Origin: Herbidospora sakaeratensis
GTDB lineage: Bacteria > Actinomycetota > Actinomycetes > Streptosporangiales > Streptosporangiaceae
Reading direction: 5' to 3'
Assembly: GCF_001570525.1 (NCBI RefSeq)
Contig: NZ_BBXC01000023.1
Location: forward strand, 23,494 to 87,493
Length of the DNA stretch: 64,000 nt
Below the pieces are notes generated by a model that did no database searches, was not told the origin of the DNA, and saw only the letters and a program-made list of their open reading frames with translations. Below, piece by piece: positions 39,886-53,400 of the stretch. Position numbers and translations under genes: made by a program. Position 1 is the first letter of the stretch. Each line of letters opens with the position of its first letter.

Positions 39886-42800
39886 CTACATCAGGAACTG
39901 CGGCGGGATGCGGAACCGCCGGGGCGGGCTCGTCACCGTCTTGACGAGCGTCGGGACGAAGACCTCCCGCTCGTGGCAGATGCGGTAGCCCTTGCAGACC
40001 TCGTTGTAGCCGTTCTCGATGTTCATCGCGGTGCCCCAGGTGTCCCACGCCCGGTCCCGGGCGCGGGCCCTGGCCTGCGCCGCGAGCGCGCGTTCGCGGT
40101 CCTTCTGGGCCTGGATCATCTTGAGCCGGTTCTGGTAGAGCCGTTCGGCCTCGATGTCGACGTTCATGCCGGGTTTGGCGTGCCCCATGACCGCCTCGTC
40201 GATGGTGACGTCCTGCCTCCTGGCCTGGATCTTGGCGTCCGCCTCTCTGATCGCCTTCTTGGCGGCGTTCTTGGCCGGGCCGTTGGCCAGGGCCTTGCCC
40301 ACGATCGGCACGAGCCCGGCCGCGCCCACGGCGCAGTCGATCTTCTTGCCCTCCTTGCACGACTTCACCGTGTCGATGACGCCGGTCACGGTGGAGACCG
40401 CGCCGAGCACCGCCGCGAACGGCTGGCCGCCGGGGATCATCGCGGCGGCCATCGCCGCGTACCCGGTGACCGCGGAGATCTTGCCGGAGTGCTCCCAGAG
40501 GAACTTGCCGGTGCCCTTGGCCGCGCTGACGACGGGGCTGGCCACGGTGGTGGCGACCGCCTTGGCGACGTTGGTGACCTTGTCCATCCACGCCGGCTTC
40601 TTGATCCCGAACAACAGGCCGTCGGGGTCGGTGAAGGTCAGCGGGTTGCCGTTGGAGTAGCTGTAGCCGTGCATCTGCTGCGGGTCGAGGGGGTCGATGA
40701 CCGGGTCGACGCTGATGAACGCGCCGAGCAGCGGGTCGTAGTCGCGGGCCCCGATGTTGACCAGGCCCGTGGGGTCGTTCGTCCCGCCGACGAAGCCCTT
40801 CTCCCCCGCCCAGAAGGCCGGGTTGGCGCCGCGCTGGGCGCCGAAGGGGAGGCTGCGCTTGCGGGTGGCCGACAGGTCCGCGGCCCTGATCATCGCCTCG
40901 GCCGTGTTGTGGTGGTCCTGGGCCAGCCAGGTCAGGCCGGTGAGCCCGGTCCCGGTCCGCACCGCGACGGTGTCGTCGCCCTGCAGGTAGTAGCGGGTGC
41001 CGGTCACCGTGGCGCCGACCGCCTTCACCTCCTGGCCGTGCGGCAGGTAGGCGGTGATGGCGCCGGGCTCCTTGCGGATCAGGCGGGCGCCCTCGGTGTC
41101 GTACAGGTAGGAGGTGGTCTGGCCGTTCTGGACGGTGGTGGCCAGGTCGCCCTCGGGGTCCCAGGTGAGGGTGGTGGCGGCGCCGTTGACGGTCCGGGCG
41201 TTCATGTTGCCGGCTTCGTCGTAGGCGTAGGTGTCGGAGCCGCCGGTGGACTTGTCGACCCGGGTGACGGCGTGCGGCTTGGAGCCGGCGGCGCCGCCCT
41301 GGGCGGGCTGGACGAAGTCGCGGATCGTCGTGGTGGTGGCGGTGCGCCAGGTCTCGGTGTCCCGGCTGCCGGTGGTCGTGTACGCGTAGCTGTGCCAGTA
41401 GGGCGCCGGGCCGCCGAGCGTGGCGGCCGAGCGGGCGGCCGGGTTGCAGTCGCCGTTGGCCGGGGTCCACGCCTCGGTCATGCGGCGCAGGTGGTCGGTG
41501 GTGAAGCACTGGTGGTCGGCCTGCTGGCCGCCGTTCGGCCGGTCGCTGACCTTGGTGACCGAGCCCATCTGGTCGTACTCGTAGTTGAAGTTGGCCGTCT
41601 GGTTCTTCAGCTCCGGCGTCGTCGAGCTGGTCACCAGTCGGCCGGTGGGCTCGTCGAAGGTCTCGGTCTGCCAGACGCGCTTGTCGTCCTGACCGAGGAT
41701 GCGCTGGATGCGCCCGCCGATCTGGTTGTAGACGGTGTCGTTGACGTAGATCTGCACGCCGCTCTTGATGTACGACTGCTTGCCGACCGGGTTGTAGCCG
41801 TACTCGAGCTTCTCCTCGGGCAGGTTGCCGGCGGCCGGCAGGGTCAGCGTGGCGGGCTGGCCGTCCTGCTTGTAGGTGGTCTTGTACTCGTACGTCTTGG
41901 CCAGCGCCCCCGTCTCGGCGGGCAGGGTGACCGTCAGGCCGGTCGCGTAGCCGCCGGCGTCGTAGCCGCTGATCAGGGTCGAGTACTTGGCGGAGCCGTT
42001 GTGCCTGATGGAGCCGGCGGGCTTGCCGAGGCCGCCGGGGGCGGTGTCGTACAACCACTCGGAGCGCAGCGGGCCGGTCGCCGAGCCCTCGCGCAGGGTG
42101 GTCTTGCGGCCCAGCGGGTCGTAGGTGTACGCGAGGACCACGCCCCGCGCGTCCTTGACGCCGGTGAGCTGCCCGGCCGTGTCGAAGGTCTGCTCGCTGA
42201 CGCCCTTGTCGGGGTCCTCCAGCTTCACCTTGTTGCCGCGCACGTCGTAGGTGTTGCGCCAGACGTTCCCGGCCTGGTCGGTGATGCTCGCCAGGTCGCC
42301 CTTGTCGGTGTAGGTGTAGCGGGTCCGGTCGTAGGTCCCCGCCGTGAACGAGTGGAACTGGCGCAGTTCGACGGTCCGGCCCCGGGCGTCCTGGACGGTC
42401 TCCGTCTTGGTCCCGCCGATCGGCGGCGTGACGACCGTGCCGGTCCCGGTGTAGGCCGTCGTGGTCGCCCACTTGGCCACGCCGTACGCCTTGAACTCGG
42501 CCTTGGTGACCCGGCCGGCGCCGTCGTAGGTGTTCTCGGTCACCGACGGGATCGCCTTGGTCGGCACCGCGATGGCCTCACCCGGCCCGGCGGTGTCGTG
42601 GTAGTACGGGTCGGAGCTCCAGGCGACCAGGCCGCGCGAGTCGTAGACGGTGTCGGCGATGACCCGGCCGCCGCCGACCGCCTGGCTCTGCGCCTGGCGC
42701 TGGCGCAGCAGCGCGTCGAACAGCACGGTCGAGGTCTGGTAACGCCCGGTGCCGTCGGGGAGCAGCTTCTTCGTGGTGGTGACCGACGGCGCGGTGTTGC

Positions 42801-45800
42801 GCACCTTGTAGGCGTACAGGATGTTGGCGGCCTCGCTCCTGGCCCGGCCGGGCAGCCAGACCTTGGTCAGCCGGCCCGCGCCGTCGTATTCGAGCTCGGT
42901 CTTGCGCCCGCCCGCGTCGGTGATGGTCGTCGGCACCTGCCAGGCCGCCTCCATCAGCGAGGAGGCCGTGTGGTCGAGCGCGTTGGTCGTCTTCACCTCG
43001 GTGACCGGCCCGGCCTTGTCCGGGACGTACTGCGTCCTCGTCGTCCGGTTCAGGGAGTCGGTGGCCGAGGTCGCGCGGCCGTTGGCGTCGTAGGTCGTGG
43101 TGGTGACGGCGAACCACTGCGGCGTGGTGCCGTTCCAGCCCTTGAGCTCCTCCTCCTTGACGACCAGGCCGCGGGTCGGCGCGGTGCCGAGCGGCTTGGT
43201 CGCGTCGTCGTAGTAGTTGCGCTCCTGCATGATCACGTCGCCGGGAATCGACGGGGTGGTGGCGCAGGCGACGCCGTACTGGTCGGTCTGCAGCACCTTG
43301 TCCTTGATCCACAGGGTGCCGTTGTGGACGTAGGACGTCTTGGTGCACTGGTCGTCACTCGCCGTGGACTCGTCGCCGAGGTCGCTGACCTCGGTCGGCA
43401 GGTTCTCGGCGTTGACCTTGGTCAGCACCTTGGTCCACTGGGTCCGCCCGTCGGCGAGCCGGGTGCGGGTCAGCTGCACCGGCGTGTGCACCATGTACGC
43501 CTTGAGCGCCCCCGACGCGCCGGTCTGGGTGAAGCCGGGCTCGGTGAGCTTCCCGGTGATCCACTGGCCGCCGACGCCGTCGAAGGTGGTCTGCTCGCGG
43601 AGCTGCCCCTGGTAGGCGTCGTGGTCCTCGATGCGCTTGGAGTGCGCGTCGCCCGTGCCGTCGAGGCTGTCCTTCACCCAGACGTCGCGGACCTTGTCGT
43701 CGGGCTGCTTGTCGCCGTCCATGCCGCGGAAGTAGCGGTACTCCGACACCGACTGCGGGCCCGACTCCAGGCCGACCCTGACCCGGACGTGGCCGTAGCC
43801 GCGCCACTGGCCCCAGGTGCGCTTCTTCTCCTCGACGAGCTCGCTGTCGTCGTACTTCCACATCGGGGCGTCGAGGTAGTCGTAGTTGGTCTGCTCGTGG
43901 GTGAAGCCGCCGCCGTTGTCGTACAGGTCGATGCGGCCCACCACGTACTTGTTGAACCAGTCGAGGGTCGGGTCGGTGCCGTCCTGGGTCGACCACTGCG
44001 GGAAGCAGCGTTTGCCGTTGGAGTGCACCGCCGGCAGGGAACTGCGGGTGCAGTCGCTCGCCAGGTAGGTGACGCCGATCTGCGCGCCGGTCTCGGTGGT
44101 GATCGACACGACGCGGAAGCGGTTGAGCGCGGTCCGGCCGTCGTTCGCGCCGTCGACCCGGTTGGGGAACGGGTCGGCGCCGGGCGAGAAGGTCACCGCG
44201 GGGTCGGTCACCGTGGCGCCGCCCTTGACGCCCGAGCCCGAGTGGGTGATCGAGTCGAGCCACATGGGCACGCCCTCGTTCTGGCTGACGCCCGCGTTCA
44301 GCCACGAGTGCTTCAGCGTCCACGACTCGACGGTGCGGAAGCCGCTGCCGTCGCGCACCTGGGCGCGCACCGCGGCCAGCCGCTTCTGCGTCCAGAACGT
44401 GGGCGACATCTGCTCGGTGCACTTGTCGCGGCAGTACTGGTCCCACGGCACGTCCGGCCACGACGCCGCGACCGCCTTGCCGCCCGAGTCGAAGCAGGTC
44501 GCGCCGGCCAGGCAGCGGTCGGCCACCTCGAACGCGATGCGCGTGGAGGCCGTCGACTGGTCGGTGCGGGTGCCGTAGTCGATCGTGGTGAGGTAGCCGC
44601 CCCGGTCGTAGGTCTGGCGCTTGTCGGCGTCGAACTCGCGGCCGTAGGCGCCGGTCTCCTTGCCGTAGTTCAGCGTCATCGTGTTGCCGTGCGGGTCGAC
44701 CACGTAGTCGAGGTTCCAGCGCCACGCCTGGGTCTCGCGGCTCCCGGCGAAGTCGCCGGCCTCGTAACCGGGGTCGCCGGGGTGGTTGCCGAAGACCTGG
44801 GTGGTCCAGGCCGAGTCGGTGCGGCGCCCGAAGAAGTACTGGGTGCCGTCGATCGTGGTGACCTTCCAGTGCTCACCGTTGTAGACGCCGTTGGAGGCGT
44901 CCGGCAGCAGTTCGACGCGGGAGCCGTCGTCGCCGGTGCCCTTCCACTTGCCGCCGCCCAGATCGATCAGCTCGGTCGAGCTGCCGTTGAGGCTCATGGT
45001 GGCGTTGGGCTTCCACCAGCACTGGTCGCCGGTCTTCTTGTCCTTGTTGTTCGGGTCCTTGCCGCCGACCGCCTTGGTGTCGTCGAGACAACTCTTGTAC
45101 GTCCGCTCGATGAAGCCGGTCCACATGTCCCAGCCGTCGCCGACCCACGACCCCTGGCCGTTCTGGCCGGAGGTCTTGCCGTCGACCGCCTGCGACGAAT
45201 ACGAGAAGGCCAGCGAGGGCGCCGGGCCGCCCACCGCGGGCGGGCTCTTGATCGGGTACTTCCAGGAGAACGCGCCCGTCTGCTGCGACACCTGCCACGT
45301 CGAGGCCGGGGTCAGCGAGGTCGCCTTGTAGTCGCCGTTCGGCCCGGCCGGGGCGGCGGCGGCCGCCAGCAGCTGGGGCGCGCCGGCCGCCGGGAGGGCG
45401 ACGTCGGCCGTGAGGGTCTGCGTCGCGGCGTCGTTCCTGCCGTCGACGGGGACGGCGGCGTCCAGGCCGCAGCCCTTCGCGCCGGGGGTGGTCAGGGCGC
45501 AGGCCGGGAGCCGGACCAGCCGCAGGCGGCTGGCCCAGTCGCCGCCGAAGGCGCCGGCGAACCCGGAGTAGTCGAGGTTGACGCCGACCGTGCCGGTCGA
45601 CCGCTGGCCGTCGCTGCGGGCCACCGACATCATGACGCCGCTGATCCCGGCGGTCTCGGCGGCGGCGCGGCCGTACACCCGCACCCCGACCTTGCCCACC
45701 GAGGCCGCCGCGGCGACCGAGACCGCCTGACCGGCGGCGGCCCGCGCGCCCGGGGTGATCTGCGCGGCGGTGTCGGCGGGCCAGACGATCGTGGCGGGGC

Positions 45801-45984
45801 CCTTGACCCGGGGCGGCTGCGCCGTCTCGACGACGGTGCGCCGCGTGTTGTCCTCGACGGGGACGGGGGTGACGTCGACCGGGACCGGGGCCTCCCAGTC
45901 GGCGAGGGCGTTGGCCGTCCCCCCGCTGACGATTCCGGCCCCCGACAGTACGAGGGCGATCAGTAACGCGGCCGGTTTCCTCAT
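39886..45984 (-). CDS. secreted RHS-repeat protein, probable polymorphic toxin
   Basis: A 2032-residue exported protein. A signal peptide (cut near ANA-L, about residue 26) leads into a large beta-rich N-terminal part with a SpvB/TcdB-like look (AFSYSSQAVDGKTSGQNGQGSWVGDGW). Many YD/RHS repeats follow (for example YTYTDKGDLASITDQAGN, YDTAGQLTG-like units). The RHS core ends with ARDYDPLLGAFISVDPVIDP and NPLTFTDPDGL at about residue 1777. The last 255 residues are the variable tip: an alanine-glycine-rich membrane-like stretch with GYAAMAAAMIPGGQPFAAVLGAV, a charged helix, then a cysteine-containing end. I see no known nuclease or deaminase motif there. It overlaps the LamG gene by four bases. 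Confidence 0.92.
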   Translation of the reverse strand: MRKPAALLIALVLSGAGIVSGGTANALADWEAPVPVDVTPVPVEDNTRRTVVETAQPPRVKGPATIVWPADTAAQITPGARAAAGQAVSVAAAASVGKVGVRVYGRAAAETAGISGVMMSVARSDGQRSTGTVGVNLDYSGFAGAFGGDWASRLRLVRLPACALTTPGAKGCGLDAAVPVDGRNDAATQTLTADVALPAAGAPQLLAAAAAPAGPNGDYKATSLTPASTWQVSQQTGAFSWKYPIKSPPAVGGPAPSLAFSYSSQAVDGKTSGQNGQGSWVGDGWDMWTGFIERTYKSCLDDTKAVGGKDPNNKDKKTGDQCWWKPNATMSLNGSSTELIDLGGGKWKGTGDDGSRVELLPDASNGVYNGEHWKVTTIDGTQYFFGRRTDSAWTTQVFGNHPGDPGYEAGDFAGSRETQAWRWNLDYVVDPHGNTMTLNYGKETGAYGREFDADKRQTYDRGGYLTTIDYGTRTDQSTASTRIAFEVADRCLAGATCFDSGGKAVAASWPDVPWDQYCRDKCTEQMSPTFWTQKRLAAVRAQVRDGSGFRTVESWTLKHSWLNAGVSQNEGVPMWLDSITHSGSGVKGGATVTDPAVTFSPGADPFPNRVDGANDGRTALNRFRVVSITTETGAQIGVTYLASDCTRSSLPAVHSNGKRCFPQWSTQDGTDPTLDWFNKYVVGRIDLYDNGGGFTHEQTNYDYLDAPMWKYDDSELVEEKKRTWGQWRGYGHVRVRVGLESGPQSVSEYRYFRGMDGDKQPDDKVRDVWVKDSLDGTGDAHSKRIEDHDAYQGQLREQTTFDGVGGQWITGKLTEPGFTQTGASGALKAYMVHTPVQLTRTRLADGRTQWTKVLTKVNAENLPTEVSDLGDESTASDDQCTKTSYVHNGTLWIKDKVLQTDQYGVACATTPSIPGDVIMQERNYYDDATKPLGTAPTRGLVVKEEELKGWNGTTPQWFAVTTTTYDANGRATSATDSLNRTTRTQYVPDKAGPVTEVKTTNALDHTASSLMEAAWQVPTTITDAGGRKTELEYDGAGRLTKVWLPGRARSEAANILYAYKVRNTAPSVTTTKKLLPDGTGRYQTSTVLFDALLRQRQAQSQAVGGGRVIADTVYDSRGLVAWSSDPYYHDTAGPGEAIAVPTKAIPSVTENTYDGAGRVTKAEFKAYGVAKWATTTAYTGTGTVVTPPIGGTKTETVQDARGRTVELRQFHSFTAGTYDRTRYTYTDKGDLASITDQAGNVWRNTYDVRGNKVKLEDPDKGVSEQTFDTAGQLTGVKDARGVVLAYTYDPLGRKTTLREGSATGPLRSEWLYDTAPGGLGKPAGSIRHNGSAKYSTLISGYDAGGYATGLTVTLPAETGALAKTYEYKTTYKQDGQPATLTLPAAGNLPEEKLEYGYNPVGKQSYIKSGVQIYVNDTVYNQIGGRIQRILGQDDKRVWQTETFDEPTGRLVTSSTTPELKNQTANFNYEYDQMGSVTKVSDRPNGGQQADHQCFTTDHLRRMTEAWTPANGDCNPAARSAATLGGPAPYWHSYAYTTTGSRDTETWRTATTTTIRDFVQPAQGGAAGSKPHAVTRVDKSTGGSDTYAYDEAGNMNARTVNGAATTLTWDPEGDLATTVQNGQTTSYLYDTEGARLIRKEPGAITAYLPHGQEVKAVGATVTGTRYYLQGDDTVAVRTGTGLTGLTWLAQDHHNTAEAMIRAADLSATRKRSLPFGAQRGANPAFWAGEKGFVGGTNDPTGLVNIGARDYDPLLGAFISVDPVIDPLDPQQMHGYSYSNGNPLTFTDPDGLLFGIKKPAWMDKVTNVAKAVATTVASPVVSAAKGTGKFLWEHSGKISAVTGYAAMAAAMIPGGQPFAAVLGAVSTVTGVIDTVKSCKEGKKIDCAVGAAGLVPIVGKALANGPAKNAAKKAIREADAKIQARRQDVTIDEAVMGHAKPGMNVDIEAERLYQNRLKMIQAQKDRERALAAQARARARDRAWDTWGTAMNIENGYNEVCKGYRICHEREVFVPTLVKTVTSPPRRFRIPPQFLM

Positions 45985-48641
45985 CCCTTGGCTCCGTCCG
46001 TGACGATCTCACTCTGGGTCAGTGCCTTCTGGTAGGCGCCGACCCTGTCGACGGCGCCGGTCCAGTACTGCGTGAGGGCGCCGGCGTCCTTGGCCCGGCC
46101 GACCGACCAGCCCTGGGTCGCCGACCACGTCGAGGTGAAGGGGACCTGGTCGGCCTCCTCCCAGTTCAGGCCGTTGACGTAGACACGCAGGCGGGTGCCG
46201 TCGTAGACGCCGGCCAGGTGGGTCCAGCCGGTGCCGACCGACTCGGTGGAGCAGGCCTTCGTCTCGGCGCCGCCGTCGGCGGCGTACATCGAGAAGCACC
46301 AGCCCTCGGCGCGGTAGCCGAGGCGGAAGCCCGAGCCGGTCGCGCCGTGCGAGGAGACGGCGGTGATCGGGCCGCTCACGGTGGTGGAGGTGAGCTTCAC
46401 CAGGGCGGTCACCGTGAAGGGCGTCTTGGTGTCGACGACCGGCTGGGTGCTCGCCCAGGCCGAGGCGCCGTCGAGGTTGAGGGCGTAGCCGCCGTTCTTG
46501 CCGGCGACGCGGGCGGCCGGGCCGGCCTTGCTGTCGAGCGTGGTCCCGGCGGGGTCGGAGGCGGCGGTGGTGCCGGTCGCCTCGTTGAAGCCCCACCCGA
46601 TGGCCTTGGCCGGGACCGGGCGGACCAGGAACTCGTAGGTGAACGGGCTGCCCGCGACGTTGCCGGCCGCGTCGGCGGCGCGGGCGGTGAGCAGGTTGAC
46701 GCCGTCGCGGTCGGGGGTCAGCGCGCCGGTCCAGACGTCGCCGGTGGTGTTCACCCAGCCCTTGTTCACGCCGTTGAGGGTCAGCTCGAAGCGGTTGGCG
46801 CCGGACGCGCCGATCGCGAACGTGCCCGCCTGACCGGCCCCGCCGTTCCAGGTGCCGTCGCTCGCTGGCGGGTACTCCGCCGACGTCACGCTCACGTTGG
46901 TGGGCGCGGTGGTGTCGACGGTGAAGTCGAACCAGCCGCCCCAGCCGCCGCAGACGTAGGCGTCGCAACCCCGGACCCGCCAGGAGTAGGCCCCTTCGGG
47001 CAGCGCCGGCGTGACCTTCCACGCCGCGGCCTGGCCGGAGGCGCGGTTGGAGACGGCCGTGCCGGACGCCGCCTTGCGGCTGGCGCGGGCGCGGTCGTAC
47101 ACCTCGAACTCGACCCGGGCGAGGGTGCCGCCGTTGGGGTCGGCGGCGACGGCCGACAGCGTGGGCGTGCCCGAACGCACCCAGGCGCAGGAGATGCCGC
47201 AGTCGGTGGTGATCTTCAGCGAGGTCGGCACCGTCGGGGTGTGGTTGTAGGTGATGATCAGCGCCACCGAGCCCGGGATGAAGTTGCTCCACCCCATGTG
47301 GTCGCCCTCGTCGGAGGAGATGAGCGCGAACGTGGTCTGCGAGGCGCGGGCGTTGGCCTGGCTCTGCATGCGGCCTTCGAGCACCTTGGCGCTGCCGTCG
47401 TCGTAGACCTTCTTCTGGTCGCCCGACGGGCAGCTCGACTCGTTGGCGTCGAACTTCTCGGTGCCGATGGTCTGCACGTTGCCGCTGCTGGTGCTGTTCC
47501 AGGTCGCGGTGTTCATGGCCGAGATGTTGTTGCGGAACAGCAGGTTGGTGTTGGCGCCCGCGCAGTTGGCGACGTGGTCGGCGGTCACCGCGAACTCGGC
47601 GGCCTGGATCGTCGCGCCGGCCAGCTGGGCGGTGTCGAACCGCATGTAGGCCCGCCACTTGCACGAGGTGTTCCACTGGCGGCCGACCCGCAACTCGCTG
47701 CGGTAGCTGGTGTAGAAGCTGGTGCCGGGCGAGCAGCTGTTGGTGTGCGTCCAGTTGCCGCCCATGCTGGGCTTGCTGAACGCCGGGTCGATGTAGATCG
47801 GGAAGGTCGCGTCGGACGCGGTCAGCAGCGCCTGGTCGGGCACGACGACCAGTTCGTGCGCGCCCACCTCGACGTCCATCTCGGCGGTGCGGCCGGGCGC
47901 GCTGTCGGCGCCCTCGTCACCCGCGCCGTCGGCGTCCCACATGAGCGCCGAGCCCGACGCGAACAGCACGTTCCCGGCGGCGTCGACGACCTCCAGGGCC
48001 GACTCGTTCTCGCGGATCGACGCCCCGCCGGACGCCTCGATCGGGAACGCGATGCGGGCGAGCTCCGCGTTGGCGGCGGCCGCCGGCGTGTTCACCACGA
48101 GGTACTGCGAGAAGCCGTCGGGTTCGGCCCGCAACTGCAGGTCGACGCCGGGCAGCACATTGGGGTAGGTCGCGGTGTCGCCGTTCAGGGAGGGCGTGGG
48201 AAGGTTCCACGGCGACTTGATCCGGATGGAGGCCGCGCCCTCGGTGAGGGTCACCATGGGGTCGGCGCCGCCGGTGGAGAAGCGCACGTCCGCCGAGGTC
48301 GCGACCGGGGTCACCCCGCCCGACAGGCGCAGGTCGGTGTTCACGTCGGTCCAGACGCCGTTCTTGACGACCTGGGTCGGGTAGAGGGAGGTGACGGCCT
48401 CCATCGTGCCGTCGGGCTGGGCGAAGACCTGGCTGGTCTCGGTGCGCTCCGAGAGCACCTCGACCTCGGTGCCGCACTGGGCGGCCATCCCGGCGGCTCC
48501 GTCGGGATTGTCGGCGGCCGCCACGCACGTCGGGGCCGTGGGAATCGGGACGGGCACGGCCGCCGCCGGAGCGGGTAGGGCGACGATGGCGGAAAGGGAG
48601 AGAAGGACGGCCGACAAGGCCGTCCGGGAGCGGGACACCAC
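45981..48641 (-). CDS. secreted LamG-domain protein, partner of the RHS protein
   Basis: An 886-residue exported protein. Signal peptide (cut near AAA-V, residue 29), then a region that in other actinomycetes forms the N-terminus of RHS proteins (TSLYPTQVVKNGVWTDVNTDLRL), a DNRLRE-like module with paired cysteines (WNTSCKWRAYMRFDTAQLAG), two fibronectin/Ig-like modules (about 480-680) and a C-terminal LamG/concanavalin lectin domain (about 690-880, SAWASTQPVVDTKTPFTVTALVKL). The GTG at 48641 has GAGGAG five bases before it. Coupling to the RHS gene suggests one cell-surface complex, split into two chains. Confidence 0.9.
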   Translation of the reverse strand: MVSRSRTALSAVLLSLSAIVALPAPAAAVPVPIPTAPTCVAAADNPDGAAGMAAQCGTEVEVLSERTETSQVFAQPDGTMEAVTSLYPTQVVKNGVWTDVNTDLRLSGGVTPVATSADVRFSTGGADPMVTLTEGAASIRIKSPWNLPTPSLNGDTATYPNVLPGVDLQLRAEPDGFSQYLVVNTPAAAANAELARIAFPIEASGGASIRENESALEVVDAAGNVLFASGSALMWDADGAGDEGADSAPGRTAEMDVEVGAHELVVVPDQALLTASDATFPIYIDPAFSKPSMGGNWTHTNSCSPGTSFYTSYRSELRVGRQWNTSCKWRAYMRFDTAQLAGATIQAAEFAVTADHVANCAGANTNLLFRNNISAMNTATWNSTSSGNVQTIGTEKFDANESSCPSGDQKKVYDDGSAKVLEGRMQSQANARASQTTFALISSDEGDHMGWSNFIPGSVALIITYNHTPTVPTSLKITTDCGISCAWVRSGTPTLSAVAADPNGGTLARVEFEVYDRARASRKAASGTAVSNRASGQAAAWKVTPALPEGAYSWRVRGCDAYVCGGWGGWFDFTVDTTAPTNVSVTSAEYPPASDGTWNGGAGQAGTFAIGASGANRFELTLNGVNKGWVNTTGDVWTGALTPDRDGVNLLTARAADAAGNVAGSPFTYEFLVRPVPAKAIGWGFNEATGTTAASDPAGTTLDSKAGPAARVAGKNGGYALNLDGASAWASTQPVVDTKTPFTVTALVKLTSTTVSGPITAVSSHGATGSGFRLGYRAEGWCFSMYAADGGAETKACSTESVGTGWTHLAGVYDGTRLRVYVNGLNWEEADQVPFTSTWSATQGWSVGRAKDAGALTQYWTGAVDRVGAYQKALTQSEIVTDGAKG

Positions 48642-48675: not shown

Positions 48676-48708
48676 ACCATGAGGCACGGGCGTATTTTTG
48701 CCGTATAG
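48676..48708 (-). promoter_or_regulatory. SARP-type heptamer pair in the LamG-RHS promoter
   Basis: On the plus strand CGTATTT (48691-48697) and CGTATAG (48702-48708) form direct repeats with an 11-bp period and four-base spacer. Read toward the LamG gene, nine bases separate them from CATGGT (48676-48681), a possible -10. This is the geometry of SARP activator sites. An almost identical arrangement lies before the small peptide operon at 52548-52580. Confidence 0.65.
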
Positions 48709-48756: not shown

Positions 48757-48847
48757 GCTCTTGACCCGATCCGATAATGGATAAGGCACATATAACGATC
48801 GACCGGTAAGGTGCATCTCACTCCCGGAGATCACCCCGAAGGTGGCG

Positions 48848-51800
48848 ATGAGGCTTCGCGTTCTCGGTCCCCTCGACATCACGATCGACGGCGCGCAGGT
48901 GCCGCTGCGGTCGGAGAAACAACGGCTGCTGCTGGCCGTGCTGATCGGCAACGCCAACGCTCCCACGGCGGGTTCCCGCCTGATCGGGGCGCTCTGGGAG
49001 GAACCGCCGGCCTCGGCGCACGAGAATCTCCGCCTGTACGTCTACCACCTGCGCAAAGCCCTGGGAGACCGGGACCGGGTGGTCCGCCACCCCTCCGGCT
49101 ACGCCCTGGCGGTCGGCCCCGGCGAGCTCGACGCGGCCGACTTCGAGGCCCTCACGGCCGAGGGCGCGCGGGCGATGAACGGCGGCGACCCCGCCACCGG
49201 GCGGCGGCTGCTGGCCAGGGCCCTGGAGATGTGGCGCGGACCGGCGTACGGCAACCTCGCCGACCACCCCGCGATCTGGCCCGCCGCAACCCGTTTGGAA
49301 GAGGCGCGGTTACGGGCGGCCGAATTGCGGATCACCGCCGACCTCGCACTGGGCCGCCACGAGGACCTCATCGGCGAGCTCACCGGCCTGGTGGCCGAAC
49401 ACCCGACCCGCGAACGGCTGCGTGCCCACCTGATGCTGGCCCTCCATCGGGCCGGGCGGCGGGCCGAGGCGCTGGAGACCTTCCGCGAGGGGCGGCGCGT
49501 CCTCATCGGCGAGCTCGGCCTCGAACCCGGCGCCGAGCTGCGCGCGCTGCACGAGGAGATCCTGCGCGGCGACTCCGGCACGTCCGCGCCGCGCCCGGCC
49601 GAGCCCAAGACCGGGCCGACCCTGTTCCCCACGCCCGCGCAGCTGCCCCACGACGTCGCCGACTTCGTCGGCCGGGCCGAGGAGCTCGGCGAGCTCGACC
49701 GGCTGCTCGACCTGCGGCAGAGCCAGGGCGTGCCGGCCTTCCTCGGGCTCACCGGCATGGGCGGCGTCGGCAAGACCGGCCTGGCGGTCCACTGGGCCCA
49801 CCGCGTCTCCGGCCGCTTCGCCGACGGCCAGCTCTACGTCGACCTGCGCGGCTACGCCGAGGACGCGGAACCGCTGGCCCCCCGGCAGGTGGTCGACCGG
49901 TTCCTGCGGGCGCTCGGCGTGCCGGGCAGCCGGATCCCCGACGACGTCGACGAGCGGGCCGGGTTGCTGCGCAGCGTGCTCTCGCGCCGGCGGGTGCTGC
50001 TCGTGCTCGACAACGCCCGCGACGCCACGCAGGTCAGGCCGCTGCTGCCCGGCTCCCCCGGGTGCGCGGTCATGGTGACCAGCCGCGACGGGCTCGACGG
50101 GCTGGTGGCGCAGGAGCGCGCCGACATCCTCCAGGTCGGCACCCTCGGCGATTCGGAGGGCGTGGCCGTGCTGGCGGGCCTGGCCGGGGGCGCGGTCGAC
50201 CCGGCCGACCCCGAACTGGCCCGGCTGAGCGAGCTCTGCGGCGGGTTGCCGCTGGCGCTGCGCATCGCCGGGGCCCGGCTGGCCGGGCGCACCCGCCTCA
50301 CCGCGGGCGTGCTGGCCGGTCACCTGGCCGACGAGCGCAACCGGCTCAGCGAGCTCAGCCACGGCGGGGTGCGGGTGCGGGCCAACTTCGGGCTCAGCTA
50401 CCGCGACCTCGACCCGGAGGCGGCGACGCTGTTCCGGCGGCTCAGCCTGCTCGGGGTGCCCGACTTCGGCGAATGGGCCGGCGGGCCGCTGCTCGGCATC
50501 GGCCGCGAGCCCCTCGGGGAGCTGTTCGAGCAGCTCGTCGCGGCGCAGCTGCTCGAAGTGGTGGCGCAGGAGGGCGCGGGCGGGGTGCGCTACCGCTTCC
50601 ACGACCTGGTCCGCCTGTTCGCCCGCGAACGCGCCATGGAGGAGGACGACGAGGCCGCCCGCGCCGCCGCGATGGGCCGCTCGCTCACCCTGTGGTTGTC
50701 GCTGGCGCAGGAGGCCCACCGCCGCGAGTACGGCGGCGACTTCGCCGTGCTGCGCGGGAGCACGCCGCGCCGGGTGCCCGACCCGGCGCTGGCCGACGCG
50801 CTGCTCGGCGAGCCGATCGAGTGGCTGGCCGCCGAGCGGGCCGGGCTCGTGGCGGCCGTCTCGCAGGCCGCCGGCCTGGGGCTGGCCTCGCTCGCCTGGG
50901 AGCTCGCGATGACGTGCGTGACGCTGTTCGAGGCCCGCAGCCTGTTCGACGACTGGCGCGCCACCCACGAGGTCGCGCTGGCCGCCGCCCGCGCCGCCGG
51001 CGACGGGCTCGGCGAGGCCGCGATGGTGTACGGACTGGGCAGCCTGGCCCTGTTCCGGCAGGAGTACGCCACCGCGGCCGAACTGCTGGAGGACTCCTCG
51101 GCTCGGTTCGAGGCCCTCGGGGCCGACCACGGCGTGGGGCTGGCGCTGCGCAACCTGGCGCTGCTCGACCGCATCACCGGCACCCCCGAACGCGCCCACC
51201 ACCGCTACAAGGAGGCGGCCGACCTGCTCAGCGAGGCCGGCGACCGGGCGGCCCAGGCCCACTCGGGCATCGGGATGGCCCAGATCCGCCTGGAGGAGGG
51301 CGTGTTCGCCGAGGCCGAGACGCTGCTGCGCGACGCCCTGCGCACCTTCGAGGACATCGGCAACCGGCGCGGGCAGGCGCAGGCGCTGTTCCGGCTCGGC
51401 GACGCCTACCTCCGGCAGGAGCGCCCCGAACCCGCGCGCGACGCGTTCGCGGCGGCGCTGCCGTTGGTGCGCGCCATCGGCGACCTCGTCGGCGAGGCCT
51501 ACCTGCTGCGCGGCCTCGGGCAGGCGCAGCTCGCCTCCGGCGAACGGCCGGCCGCCGAAGCCTCGATGAAGGCCGCCGTCGCCGCCGCGCAACGGGTCGG
51601 CGACCAGTTCGCCGAGGCCAGCGCGTCTCTCGGGCTCGGCTCCCTCTACGAGTCCGGCGATGACCTCGGCGCCGCGGTGCCGCCTCTCGAACGAGCGGTG
51701 ACGTTGTTCGCCGAGATGGACAACACGACCTGGCGGGCCCGCGCAATGGACGCCCTCGCCGTCACCCTCCAGAGGACGGGCGACGAGGAGGCCGCGCGGG

Positions 51801-51892
51801 CCCTGTGGGAGACGGCCCACTCCCTGCTGCTCGGCCTCGACTCCCCCGAGGCCGCGAAGCTGGCGGCGCGGCTCACGCCCCGCCCCGAGTAG
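48848..51892 (+). CDS. AfsR/SARP family regulator with NB-ARC and TPR domains
   Basis: A 1014-residue pathway regulator of the large AfsR class. An OmpR-type winged helix (about 1-95, MRLRVLGPLDITIDGAQVPLRSEKQRLLLAVL) and the BTAD helical domain (about 95-245) form the SARP unit. An NB-ARC ATPase follows with P-loop GMGGVGKT near residue 305, VLLVLDNARD and GGLPLALRIAGARL. The rest, from about 640, is TPR repeats. The ATG at 48848 is preferred over the GTG at 48842, because GAAGG then sits five bases upstream. SARPs bind heptamer direct repeats; suitable pairs lie before the LamG-RHS operon and before the NMHWGN peptide operon. The TPR part could sense a peptide or protein partner. Confidence 0.94.
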   Translation: MRLRVLGPLDITIDGAQVPLRSEKQRLLLAVLIGNANAPTAGSRLIGALWEEPPASAHENLRLYVYHLRKALGDRDRVVRHPSGYALAVGPGELDAADFEALTAEGARAMNGGDPATGRRLLARALEMWRGPAYGNLADHPAIWPAATRLEEARLRAAELRITADLALGRHEDLIGELTGLVAEHPTRERLRAHLMLALHRAGRRAEALETFREGRRVLIGELGLEPGAELRALHEEILRGDSGTSAPRPAEPKTGPTLFPTPAQLPHDVADFVGRAEELGELDRLLDLRQSQGVPAFLGLTGMGGVGKTGLAVHWAHRVSGRFADGQLYVDLRGYAEDAEPLAPRQVVDRFLRALGVPGSRIPDDVDERAGLLRSVLSRRRVLLVLDNARDATQVRPLLPGSPGCAVMVTSRDGLDGLVAQERADILQVGTLGDSEGVAVLAGLAGGAVDPADPELARLSELCGGLPLALRIAGARLAGRTRLTAGVLAGHLADERNRLSELSHGGVRVRANFGLSYRDLDPEAATLFRRLSLLGVPDFGEWAGGPLLGIGREPLGELFEQLVAAQLLEVVAQEGAGGVRYRFHDLVRLFARERAMEEDDEAARAAAMGRSLTLWLSLAQEAHRREYGGDFAVLRGSTPRRVPDPALADALLGEPIEWLAAERAGLVAAVSQAAGLGLASLAWELAMTCVTLFEARSLFDDWRATHEVALAAARAAGDGLGEAAMVYGLGSLALFRQEYATAAELLEDSSARFEALGADHGVGLALRNLALLDRITGTPERAHHRYKEAADLLSEAGDRAAQAHSGIGMAQIRLEEGVFAEAETLLRDALRTFEDIGNRRGQAQALFRLGDAYLRQERPEPARDAFAAALPLVRAIGDLVGEAYLLRGLGQAQLASGERPAAEASMKAAVAAAQRVGDQFAEASASLGLGSLYESGDDLGAAVPPLERAVTLFAEMDNTTWRARAMDALAVTLQRTGDEEAARALWETAHSLLLGLDSPEAAKLAARLTPRPE

Positions 51893-51912: not shown

Positions 51913-52068
51913 CTAGGGGCAGTCGTAGTTGCCCCAGTGCATGTTCTCCGGGCACAGGTTGACGATGACCTCGTTCCACGGCACGGCCGAGGCCGGCCCG
52001 TGGAACGTCAGGAGCACGCCGATGACCAGAGCGAAGACGATCAGTCCTGCTTTGACGACTCTCTTCAT
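51913..52068 (-). CDS. NMHWGN peptide 3 (51-aa secreted peptide)
   Basis: A 51-residue secreted peptide not belonging to any family I know. It has a basic start (MKRVVKAG), a hydrophobic segment and a cleavage site near ASA-V (about residue 28), leaving a mature peptide of roughly 23 residues with two cysteines around the core NMHWGN, ending NYDCP. The start has GGGGAAT seven bases before it. It begins 28 bases after peptide 2 and ends 20 bases from the convergent SARP stop. Two homologues precede it in the same operon. Signal, antimicrobial or modified-peptide roles are possible. Confidence 0.8.
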   Translation of the reverse strand: MKRVVKAGLIVFALVIGVLLTFHGPASAVPWNEVIVNLCPENMHWGNYDCP

Positions 52069-52096
52069 GTGATTCCCCGTCAGGAAGGGAGCCCGT

Positions 52097-52294
52097 TCAG
52101 TCGCTGGGACGTTCGTTGCCCCAGTGCATGTTCGGGTCCGGAGGGACGACGCACTCGTCGGGGTCGACAGCGTAGTCGCACGGAGGAGGCGGCAGCGGCC
52201 CCGGCGCCGCGAAGGCCGGGGCGCCGAACACCCCGATTCCGCCCGCTGCCAGCGCGGCCACGACGACGGCCTTCCGGCCCTTCTTCAGGTTCAC
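52097..52294 (-). CDS. NMHWGN peptide 2 (65-aa secreted peptide)
   Basis: A 65-residue secreted peptide. GTG start overlapping the peptide 1 stop as GTGA. The N-terminus (NLKKGRKAVVVAALAAGGIGVFG) is a signal sequence cut near AFA-A (about residue 29). The mature part is proline-rich (GPLPPPPCDYAV), with two cysteines before the core and the end DPNMHWGNERPSD. Only the NMHWGN core and the secretion signal are shared with its neighbours; the rest differs, which suggests the core is the functional element. Confidence 0.8.
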   Translation of the reverse strand: MNLKKGRKAVVVAALAAGGIGVFGAPAFAAPGPLPPPPCDYAVDPDECVVPPDPNMHWGNERPSD

Positions 52295-52518
52295 GTGGCG
52301 CCCCCATCCGGGTTGTCGTTCCCACAGGTGGGGTTGCCCCAGTGCATGTTGCTCCCGCACACGATGGGGTTCTGCTGATACTTGGAGGGATCGTTGACGG
52401 TGATGATGATCAGGACGCCGCCGTCGGGTTCGTCGGCCGCCGCGGGCGCGCTGAGTGCCCCGAGGACGCCGGCCGTCAGCGCGAGAACGGCCAGCCCCTT
52501 GATCGCTCTTTCCTTCAT
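52291..52518 (-). CDS. NMHWGN peptide 1 (75-aa secreted peptide)
   Basis: A 75-residue secreted peptide and first gene of the peptide operon. The signal sequence (MKERAIKGLAVLALTAG) is cut near AAA-D (about residue 31). The mature part DEPDGGVLIIITVNDPSKY continues to IVCGSNMHWGNPTCGND, so the core is bracketed by two cysteines, as in peptide 3. The ATG at 52518 has GGGGGA upstream. A longer open frame exists but lacks a ribosome site. It lies 45 bases downstream of a SARP-type heptamer pair. No modifying enzyme is adjacent. Confidence 0.82.
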   Translation of the reverse strand: MKERAIKGLAVLALTAGVLGALSAPAAADEPDGGVLIIITVNDPSKYQQNPIVCGSNMHWGNPTCGNDNPDGGAT

Positions 52519-52547: not shown

Positions 52548-52580
52548 AGCCTGGCACGCCCGCGTATACGGGGCGTATAT
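52548..52580 (-). promoter_or_regulatory. SARP-type heptamer pair in the NMHWGN peptide promoter
   Basis: On the plus strand CGTATAC (52563-52569) and CGTATAT (52574-52580) repeat with an 11-bp period and a four-base spacer. Read toward the peptide genes, nine bases lie between the repeats and CAGGCT (52548-52553), a possible -10. Spacing and heptamer agree with the LamG-RHS promoter, so one regulator probably serves both, most likely the SARP encoded between them. Confidence 0.65.
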
Positions 52581-52587
52581 CCCCGCG

Positions 52588-53400
52588 TCAGAAGCGGCTT
52601 CCGCTCGGGTGGACGACCACCTCGACGCCCACGCCGAGGTCGCCGAGCGTGCGGGCGGCGTCGGCCAGCGAGAGGCGGACCAGCGGGAACAGCCGCTCCG
52701 GCGGCAGCGGGGTGACCGACAGCACGACGAAGACCACCCGGGAGGGGCGGGCGCCGCCGGCGAACCGGCGGCGGGCCGCCGTCGCGGCGGTGGTGACGAC
52801 CGGGCCGAGGGCGGCGGGGGTGGTCACGTAGACGAGGTCGCCGCGCGCGGTGAGCAGGTCGCCGAGGTCGCCGCCGGGCAGGGCGAGCAGGTCGGGGCGG
52901 AGGTTCCCGGCGTTGGCCGCGTAGACGCGGGGCGACTCCCCCGGGCGCCAGTCGGGCAGTTCGGGGTCGGCGCCGAAGAGGGGGCGGACGGTGGCCAGGG
53001 CGGCCGCCAGGCGCTCGGGGTCGAGTTCGTGCCAGTCGCCGTCGACCAGCGCCCAGCGGTCGTCCATCACCGCCTGGAGCCAGGCCAGCGCGCGGGCGCC
53101 GCCGATGTCCGTGCGGCCGGCGTACATGCGGACGGTTCCCGACCGGAGCGCGGCCACCCTCGCGCCGGCGGGCTGGAGGAGGGCGCGCTGCAGCAGGTAG
53201 CCGACGTCGACGGCGTCGCGGTAGCCGGACACGCTGCCGACCTTGACGCGGTAGCGGTCGGCCCGCGTGTGGGCGGCGCGGCAGGCGGGCGGCACGACCG
53301 CCTGCCACGTCACGGCGGCTCCGTCGGCGCGGGTGTCGATCCGGGCGTCGAGGCGGGCGTCGAGTTCGGCCCGGGGTAATGGAGGGCGGCAGCGGCTCAT
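52588..53400 (-). CDS. conserved hypothetical protein, divergent to nuclease-helicase operon
   Basis: A 270-residue soluble protein I cannot assign. Noticeable segments are YRVKVGSVSGYRDAVDVGYLLQRALLQPAG, MDDRWALVDGDWHELDPERL near residue 120 and, at the end, SRVVFVVLSVTPLPPERL followed by LSLADAARTLGDLGVGVEVVV. The DGDWHELD and final pattern faintly recall the TIGR04141/DUF6119 sporadic proteins; this is weak. It is transcribed away from the nuclease-helicase operon out of a shared 115-base promoter region (TTGCTT, 17 bases, TACATT on its own strand), so it may regulate or belong to that system. Confidence 0.7.
   Translation of the reverse strand: MSRCRPPLPRAELDARLDARIDTRADGAAVTWQAVVPPACRAAHTRADRYRVKVGSVSGYRDAVDVGYLLQRALLQPAGARVAALRSGTVRMYAGRTDIGGARALAWLQAVMDDRWALVDGDWHELDPERLAAALATVRPLFGADPELPDWRPGESPRVYAANAGNLRPDLLALPGGDLGDLLTARGDLVYVTTPAALGPVVTTAATAARRRFAGGARPSRVVFVVLSVTPLPPERLFPLVRLSLADAARTLGDLGVGVEVVVHPSGSRF

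Follow-up and report, generated by a model that had tools for sequence, protein, structure and literature searches.

Small peptides with a tryptophan core beside large SARP regulators of Actinomycetes: a candidate peptide-pheromone system

What might three tiny precursors do that have little in common beyond a signal-like start and six residues, and which protein might read those residues? The question is raised by a locus of the soil actinomycete Herbidospora sakaeratensis (Streptosporangiaceae) within a stretch of 64,000 nucleotides (contig NZ_BBXC01000023.1, positions 23,494 to 87,493), which was analysed at its full length and is called the window here. Three small genes on its minus strand, transcribed in the order A, B, C, encode peptides with the core NMHWGN and lie beside the gene of a large AfsR-type SARP. 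The best reading of this locus and its relatives is a peptide-pheromone system with a STAND/SARP receptor, which would work like the RRNPP quorum-sensing systems without being a member of them, and we give a probability of roughly 0.7 to the three peptides being propeptides of a short signal that the adjacent SARP reads. The observations behind this reading are the conservation of the genes, the selection on the core, the linkage to the SARP, the promoter repeat, the clade-specific cores, the multi-copy precursors and the pheromone-receptor-like fold of the TPR region.

Three precursors and their selected core

The initial annotation had described three small, signal-bearing open reading frames (ORFs) with NMHWGN, bracketed by cysteines in two of them, and the ORF coordinates and translations bear this out (Table 1). 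The core is encoded at 52333-52350 in A, 52115-52132 in B and 51928-51945 in C and lies 4-13 residues before the C-terminus, with cysteines on both sides in A and C and not in B. All three N-termini are positively charged, hydrophobic and AxA-like, the assignment as signal peptides having been made by eye and with a crude rule, not with SignalP, and the spacing of the genes suggests a single operon. The string ATGCAYTGGGG occurs three times in the window against 0.06 expected, and an 18-base degenerate NMHWGN motif is found nowhere in the 8.6-Mb genome except in these genes, the reversed control giving 0.

A search of related genomes, which the initial annotation had proposed, turned up homologous peptides in Herbidospora and in two other genera. 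The motif is present in all seven Herbidospora genomes searched (2, 3, 3, 3, 3, 3 and 4 copies, 21 altogether) and once each in two of the 334 other genomes of the family; among the carriers are six Herbidospora species, Streptosporangiaceae bacterium NEAU-GS5 (G085) and Nonomuraea sp. NEAU-A123 (G179). The latter two each have a single tiny, signal-bearing CNMHWGN peptide, with the ends CNMHWGNEGGRYC and CNMHWGNARPPGCGGEGT. Peptide A has orthologues in five other Herbidospora genomes, and the proportion of non-synonymous differences (pN) in its core is 0. Among the Herbidospora orthologues as a whole the core has no non-synonymous difference, with synonymous ones in A and B and neither kind in C, while the ratio of non-synonymous to synonymous differences (pN/pS) in the non-signal remainder is 0.73 (A), 0.81 (B) and 1.26 (C); selection thus falls on the core. 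Strong selection at the protein level is limited to it, with almost neutral drift in the rest of the mature peptide. The core had been proposed to be what is recognised or modified, and it is indeed the sole strongly selected part, common to unlike peptides of three genera beside the same SARP; of the two possibilities, nothing favouring modification over recognition was found among neighbours that are not all annotated.

Other origins of the motif were considered and rejected. Chance or base composition is ruled out by the motif counts, the controls, the conservation and the SARP linkage, and an element acting at the DNA level is excluded by variation in the core that is synonymous only (AAT, GGT, CAT and GGA variants) and in frame in every copy inspected. 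The sequence AACATGCAYTGGGGNAAC was met in 42 genomic stretches, of which eight, all actinomycete, contain small signal-bearing ORFs; inspection by eye of the 34 non-actinomycete ones gave only large ORFs or short fragments and no small ORF with both a signal sequence and a motif close to its end, and these occurrences were taken as chance. In agreement with the earlier statement that no described family carries this motif, A, B and C had no match in Pfam or NCBIfam at E<=10, and ten further peptides of the family had none above the curated cut-offs.

The adjoining SARP and the SARP-type promoter repeats

The SARP gene and peptide gene C are arranged tail-to-tail, with 20 nt between the SARP stop codon and the end of C, and the same arrangement of peptide genes and a large AfsR-type SARP is found in nine of nine motif genomes; the linkage to SARP genes, which the initial annotation had proposed to check, is thus strongly positive. 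The AfsR-type domain set (OmpR-type DNA-binding, BTAD, NB-ARC and TPR) is present in the SARPs of the window and of G085. For the TPR model the closest folds are LGN, Rap, NprR and MalT domain III, with pheromone-bound Rap and peptide-bound LGN among them. The model weakly suggests a TPR superhelix of the peptide-binding type in the SARP, the likeness to Rap and NprR being weak because TPR folds are common.

In nine of nine motif genomes a direct repeat of the SARP type occupies the same position upstream of the leading peptide gene (11 of 12 positions in G085, 12 of 12 elsewhere), and repeats with 11-bp units are the classical SARP site according to a review (PMC10972967). Such sites number 2-8 per genome when the last base is left free, against 0-2 in the reversed control. 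The window has exactly two sites with at least 11 of 12 matches, and none as good appeared in 50 composition shuffles. The second of them lies about 50 bp upstream of a divergent operon that would encode a LamG-domain protein and an RHS-repeat giant; a like site is found in G039, G040, G041 and G042 and not in G038 and G043. A further site in the H. sakaeratensis genome stands in front of another RHS giant, whose C-terminal domain is a prokaryotic phospholipase A2 (L284:3743-9847, plus strand). Because SARP-type boxes stand before their genes, RHS-type secreted proteins are probable targets of the SARP. RHS-repeat proteins are also met beside the SARP loci L124, L130 and L132, the last with a pretoxin HINT domain. 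Elsewhere in Herbidospora (L036, L040, L044, L047, L057, L060) an 11-bp box is conserved, flanked by a class II glutamine amidotransferase-like gene and the gene of a tiny regulator of the AraC type; this box, the gene types being judged from sequence, may mark a further target.

Table 1. Positions of the peptide genes, the SARP, the promoter boxes and the probable target genes in the window
Feature	Coordinates	Strand	Description
Peptide gene A	52291..52518	-	75 aa; signal-like N-terminus; C-GS-NMHWGN-PT-C
Peptide gene B	52097..52294	-	65 aa; GTG start; 4-nt overlap with the 3' end of A; PDPNMHWGNERPSD, then stop
Peptide gene C	51913..52068	-	51 aa; C-PE-NMHWGN-YD-C-P, then stop
SARP-type box TATACG-N5-TATACG, 11-bp period	52563..52579	-	upstream of peptide gene A; 12/12 match
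Large SARP, putative receptor/activator	48842..51892	+	1016 aa; Trans_reg_C, BTAD, NB-ARC, TPR (Pfam)
SARP TPR sensor region	50762..51889	+	376 aa; AlphaFold2 pLDDT 93.9
Second SARP-type box	48691..48707	-	11/12 match; before the LamG-RHS operon, a probable second target
Secreted LamG-domain protein	45981..48641	-	886 aa; Pfam Laminin_G_3; probable SARP target, from the box
RHS-repeat/SpvB giant secreted protein	39886..45984	-	2032 aa; Pfam; probably same operon as LamG gene; probable target, from the box

Beyond the SARP, the neighbours of the peptide genes in Herbidospora, G085 and G179 look different. The statement that the SARP alone stays as a neighbour was softened on re-check, with the odds of the readings unchanged, by ABC-type genes in G179 and in G222, the genome with the best-scoring SARP outside the nine (L094; TPR identity 52-53%), which has a convergent CNMHWGT peptide. 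In G179 the genes of an ABC ATPase and of a membrane protein of 240 aa stand immediately before the peptide gene (L031:6653-8232, plus strand), and a membrane protein 81% identical to that of G179 precedes the G222 SARP (L094:563-1294, plus strand); nothing like this pair was seen in the G085 neighbourhood. The pair is a possible candidate for a transporter of the peptide. Directly upstream of the peptide operon in the window lies a DUF6119-related gene (52588-53400, minus strand), which has the same position in at least five other Herbidospora genomes; near the G085 and G179 peptides no such gene was seen.

A wider family of tryptophan-core peptides

The three peptides of the initial annotation are one class of a far larger family, which could not be seen from the window itself. 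When the SARP TPR region was searched against 341 genomes of the family, 73 genomes matched at E 1e-55, and among the first 40 homologous loci tiny signal-bearing ORFs with a tryptophan (W) core near their end were found next to the SARP. A detection rule derived from these loci was fixed and then applied to 60 held-out loci, of which 59 had a SARP ORF; L133 and L144 were left out of the rule-based count, no SARP ORF having passed the BLAST rule there. A motif ORF lay within 800 bp of the SARP at 30 of the 59 held-out loci and at 31 of 39 in the first set, the rule's own source, against a background of 5 such ORFs in 154 kb (about 0.056 per locus); binomial tails for these counts overstate the significance, because many loci are close relatives, and about 7 of the 30 held-out motif ORFs looked spurious by eye. 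Farther from the SARP, motif ORFs numbered 3 in the held-out set, 0 in the first set and 1 in the NMHWGN loci. With the reversed motif there were 5 ORFs (held-out) and 6 (first set) near the SARP, and 6 (held-out), 2 (first set) and 19 (NMHWGN loci) far from it. A relaxed reading of the missed loci added further core variants as well as clades without a peptide.

Homologous SARPs of several actinomycete families, Streptomyces included, thus adjoin small signal-bearing W-core ORFs in many cases, not in all, and the cores are clade-specific (NMHWG, DSHWM, DSTWT, NTPWG, DDPWT, DMPWG). Outside the family of Herbidospora, 8 of 16 loci had a candidate peptide by eye, and among eight Streptomyces plasmid loci, from 34 matches listed, three had a clear peptide and one a doubtful one. 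One plasmid of Streptomyces cynarae (L305, NZ_CP106794.1, 3584-3922, minus strand) carries, convergent to a SARP gene, a candidate relative that has a DDTPWG core and may be leaderless. In the DSTWT-class loci L103, L104, L105 and L110 the peptide gene is preceded by a co-directional M20-type peptidase gene (Pfam), which was not seen in L101; the peptidase could be a maturation enzyme.

Core classes (MHWG, MPW, FHWT, STWT, S[HT]W[MT], MxWT, xPW[GD], DDPW repeats and [KME]W[IG]) and the curated peptide lists were assigned by hand and post hoc, only the 800-bp rule having been fixed ahead of the held-out loci. On a tree of 129 TPR regions, built with a 'quick' method and with long branches, these labels can be explained by 29 changes, where shuffled labels need 79.9 on average and none of 200 shuffles was as low. 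Each of four classes falls on a single branch, and the 16 rows of the S[HT]W[MT] class need two changes. In a curated set of 82 peptides, from which the NMHWGN peptides of the nine genomes are excluded, the tryptophan is the penultimate residue in 50, it follows P, H or T in 75, and it precedes G, T, M or D in 72. Eight of the 82 precursors contain 2-5 core copies with variable spacers, the last copy standing at or near the C-terminus. Such multi-copy architecture is known from the Phr propeptides of Bacillus phages, whose copies are freed by extracellular proteases (PMC11343458). In genus g87, probably Streptomyces, 12 of 121 genomes match the SARP of a multi-copy locus; at the 13 loci, with the query's own included, inspection by eye gave a core peptide in 11, one of them with a weak signal sequence, and 2-4 core copies in nine. 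The Streptomyces plasmids have four copies in NBC_00503, one in the NBC_00048 relative and two in NBC_00335, in a gene annotated only as 'hypothetical protein'.

Promoters were compared over the 130 bp that precede each of 78 peptide genes. Direct repeats score best at a spacing of 11 bp in 32 cases, with 12 bp as the runner-up in 8, and once the 12 genes of the NMHWGN/MPW clade are set aside, 11 bp is still best in 22 of 66. A strict score at 11 bp is exceeded by 11 genes, 8 of them in the NMHWGN/MPW clade, against 0.1 expected from shuffles that preserve base composition only.

A possible signalling route, its rivals and known systems

According to the AfsR structure paper, the NOD and TPR portions of AfsR inhibit it, and a STAND protein is presumed to be inactive before an inducer binds; the existence of an AfsR inducer, the paper states, 'remains elusive' (PMC10936776). 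In the simplest model, the W-core peptide, made under SARP control, is this inducer. The propeptides would be exported by way of their signal sequences and cut to a short W-core peptide, which would return to the cytoplasm and bind the TPR groove of its cognate SARP; this might lift the inhibition by NOD and TPR in the way in which inducers act on MalT and other STAND regulators. The SARP would bind the 11-bp direct repeat and activate the peptide operon, as a feedback, together with the LamG-RHS operon, and in Streptomyces the targets of such SARPs would probably be antibiotic clusters. DNA binding, export, processing, re-import, peptide binding and the direction of the effect are steps that we infer. 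We also regard it as rather probable that W-core peptides are a widespread and diversified family of Actinomycetes with STAND-type SARPs as cytoplasmic receptors, separate in origin from RRNPP, whose clade-specific signals of 5-7 residues control antibiotic clusters in Streptomyces and, in Herbidospora, secreted proteins of the RHS type.

Several observations weigh against a pheromone role. The pairing of SARP and peptide is not universal, because 38 of 129 SARP rows are labelled peptide-less and whole clades are without a peptide, although a peptide is in fact present in two of these rows (L095) and the loci L166 and L186 are situated at contig ends; a universal pairing was accordingly rejected. 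In G179 the peptide survives although the SARP is broken, its NB-ARC region gone and its BTAD and TPR pieces in different frames, and with an ABC-type gene pair adjoining that peptide the SARP is not the sole shared neighbour. The MPW class and the scattered xPWD set do not cluster on the tree, the MPW rows being split partly because the identical L095 rows had no label, and since linked genes share their history, agreement with the tree is by itself no proof of a ligand and its receptor. The core of the NMHWGN class is not C-terminal and is often flanked by cysteines, unlike those of the DSTWT, NTPWG and DDPWT classes. The signal-like N-terminus belonged to the selection rule, and its frequency is therefore no independent evidence. 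TPR superhelices widely resemble one another, and the inner helices are not enriched in class-separating positions (mean information 1.05, against 1.19 for the outer helices). A few class-specific columns (I170, F210, R250) do fall at one 40-residue phase of the inner helices and are not used as proof, since class information is overall no higher there than on the outer helices.

Could the peptides instead be outputs, that is, secreted antimicrobial, surface or matrix peptides which the SARP switches on and whose active site is the W core? The box upstream of their genes, the secretion-like precursors, the cysteine pairs around the core in several NMHWGN peptides, the presence of the box before the RHS giants too, and the ABC-type pair of G179, which could be an exporter, would all fit. 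Against this, the core changes along with the TPR clade while the peptide bodies are unconserved, the cores are often the last five residues, multi-copy precursors differ in copy number between relatives, and no immunity-type gene stood out among the neighbours listed, most of them unannotated, so that we hold an output role to be unlikely. The same linkage and the same agreement of core and TPR clade would also be expected of a cell-autonomous brake, in which the precursor or its core holds the SARP in the producing cell until it is exported and the SARP gauges secretion, not neighbours. The inhibition of AfsR by its NOD/TPR part (PMC10936776) and the Streptomyces cynarae candidate, which has no clear signal sequence, agree with such an export sensor, but multi-copy precursors with spacers suggest extracellular cutting, as for Phr propeptides (PMC11343458), and we consider it quite improbable.

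A third possibility, that the peptides are precursors of ribosomally synthesized and post-translationally modified peptides (RiPPs) whose core is enzymatically turned into a SARP-controlled natural product, would account for a short conserved core within small precursors. Two Streptomyces members lie near genes for non-ribosomal peptide synthetases (NRPS) or NRPS/polyketide synthases (15 kb in NBC_00503, 9 kb in NBC_00335), and a lasso peptide B2 protein is encoded about 9 kb from the peptide on one plasmid. It appears very improbable all the same: the neighbours listed, most of them seen by their first residues only, include no conserved modifying enzyme, the precursors have Sec-like signals instead of RiPP leaders, and none of 13 peptides reaches the cut-off of a Pfam or NCBIfam family.

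Large SARPs act as regulators of antibiotic clusters, and many such clusters are silent in culture. If the pheromone reading is true, it answers what large SARPs sense with a TPR region that has so far had no known inducer; each SARP-peptide pair would name its own candidate signal, accessible by ordinary peptide synthesis and addable to cultures. The family of small peptides beside antibiotic-regulator genes is apparently undescribed: searches of the open-access literature in PMC listed no description of SARP-linked secreted peptides, which is no proof of novelty.

NosP, a SARP of the nosiheptide cluster, is small and without TPR, and its ligands come from a RiPP precursor, not from a secreted signal. 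According to a title cited in PMC10972967, it has been reported to respond to peptidyl ligands. With AfsR and other large SARPs of Streptomyces the SARP of the window shares, as predicted from sequence, the set of Trans_reg_C, BTAD, NB-ARC and TPR and the 11-bp direct-repeat sites; what differs is the linked secreted-type peptide, since the available part of the AfsR structure paper mentions no peptide ligand (PMC10936776). The STAND regulators MalT and GutR have sugars as inducers, whereas the inducer proposed here is a peptide that the organism itself would make and secrete. In kinesin light chain and LGN, grooves of the same TPR fold accommodate short linear peptides (6f9i is among the fold matches), and kinesin light chain recognises tryptophan-acidic motifs (PMC5450233), but these are eukaryotic scaffolds, not regulators, and the likeness is one of fold only.

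Closest in logic are the RRNPP (RRNPPA) systems of Bacillota, such as Rap-Phr, NprR-NprX, PlcR-PapR and ComR-XIP, with receptors that contain an XRE-type helix-turn-helix or a Rap N-domain. A small propeptide gene, predicted to be secreted and adjoining the receptor gene, is found here as there. Their mature signal is C-terminal; here W is penultimate in 50 of the 82 curated peptides and the last repeats stand at or near the C-terminus, but the NMHWGN class does not show this. The putative receptor lies outside the RRNPP definition, with a SARP-NB-ARC-TPR protein of 1016 aa against the 250-500 aa of the published size rule, and RRNPP_detector was applied to Firmicutes and viruses (PMC10075063). 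Further differences are the peptide cores, which are new, the genes, which are often convergent, the promoter repeats of the SARP type and the occurrence in Actinomycetes, whose usual signals are small molecules (PMC10075063) and which, if the pheromone reading is true, gain a genetically encoded peptide language.
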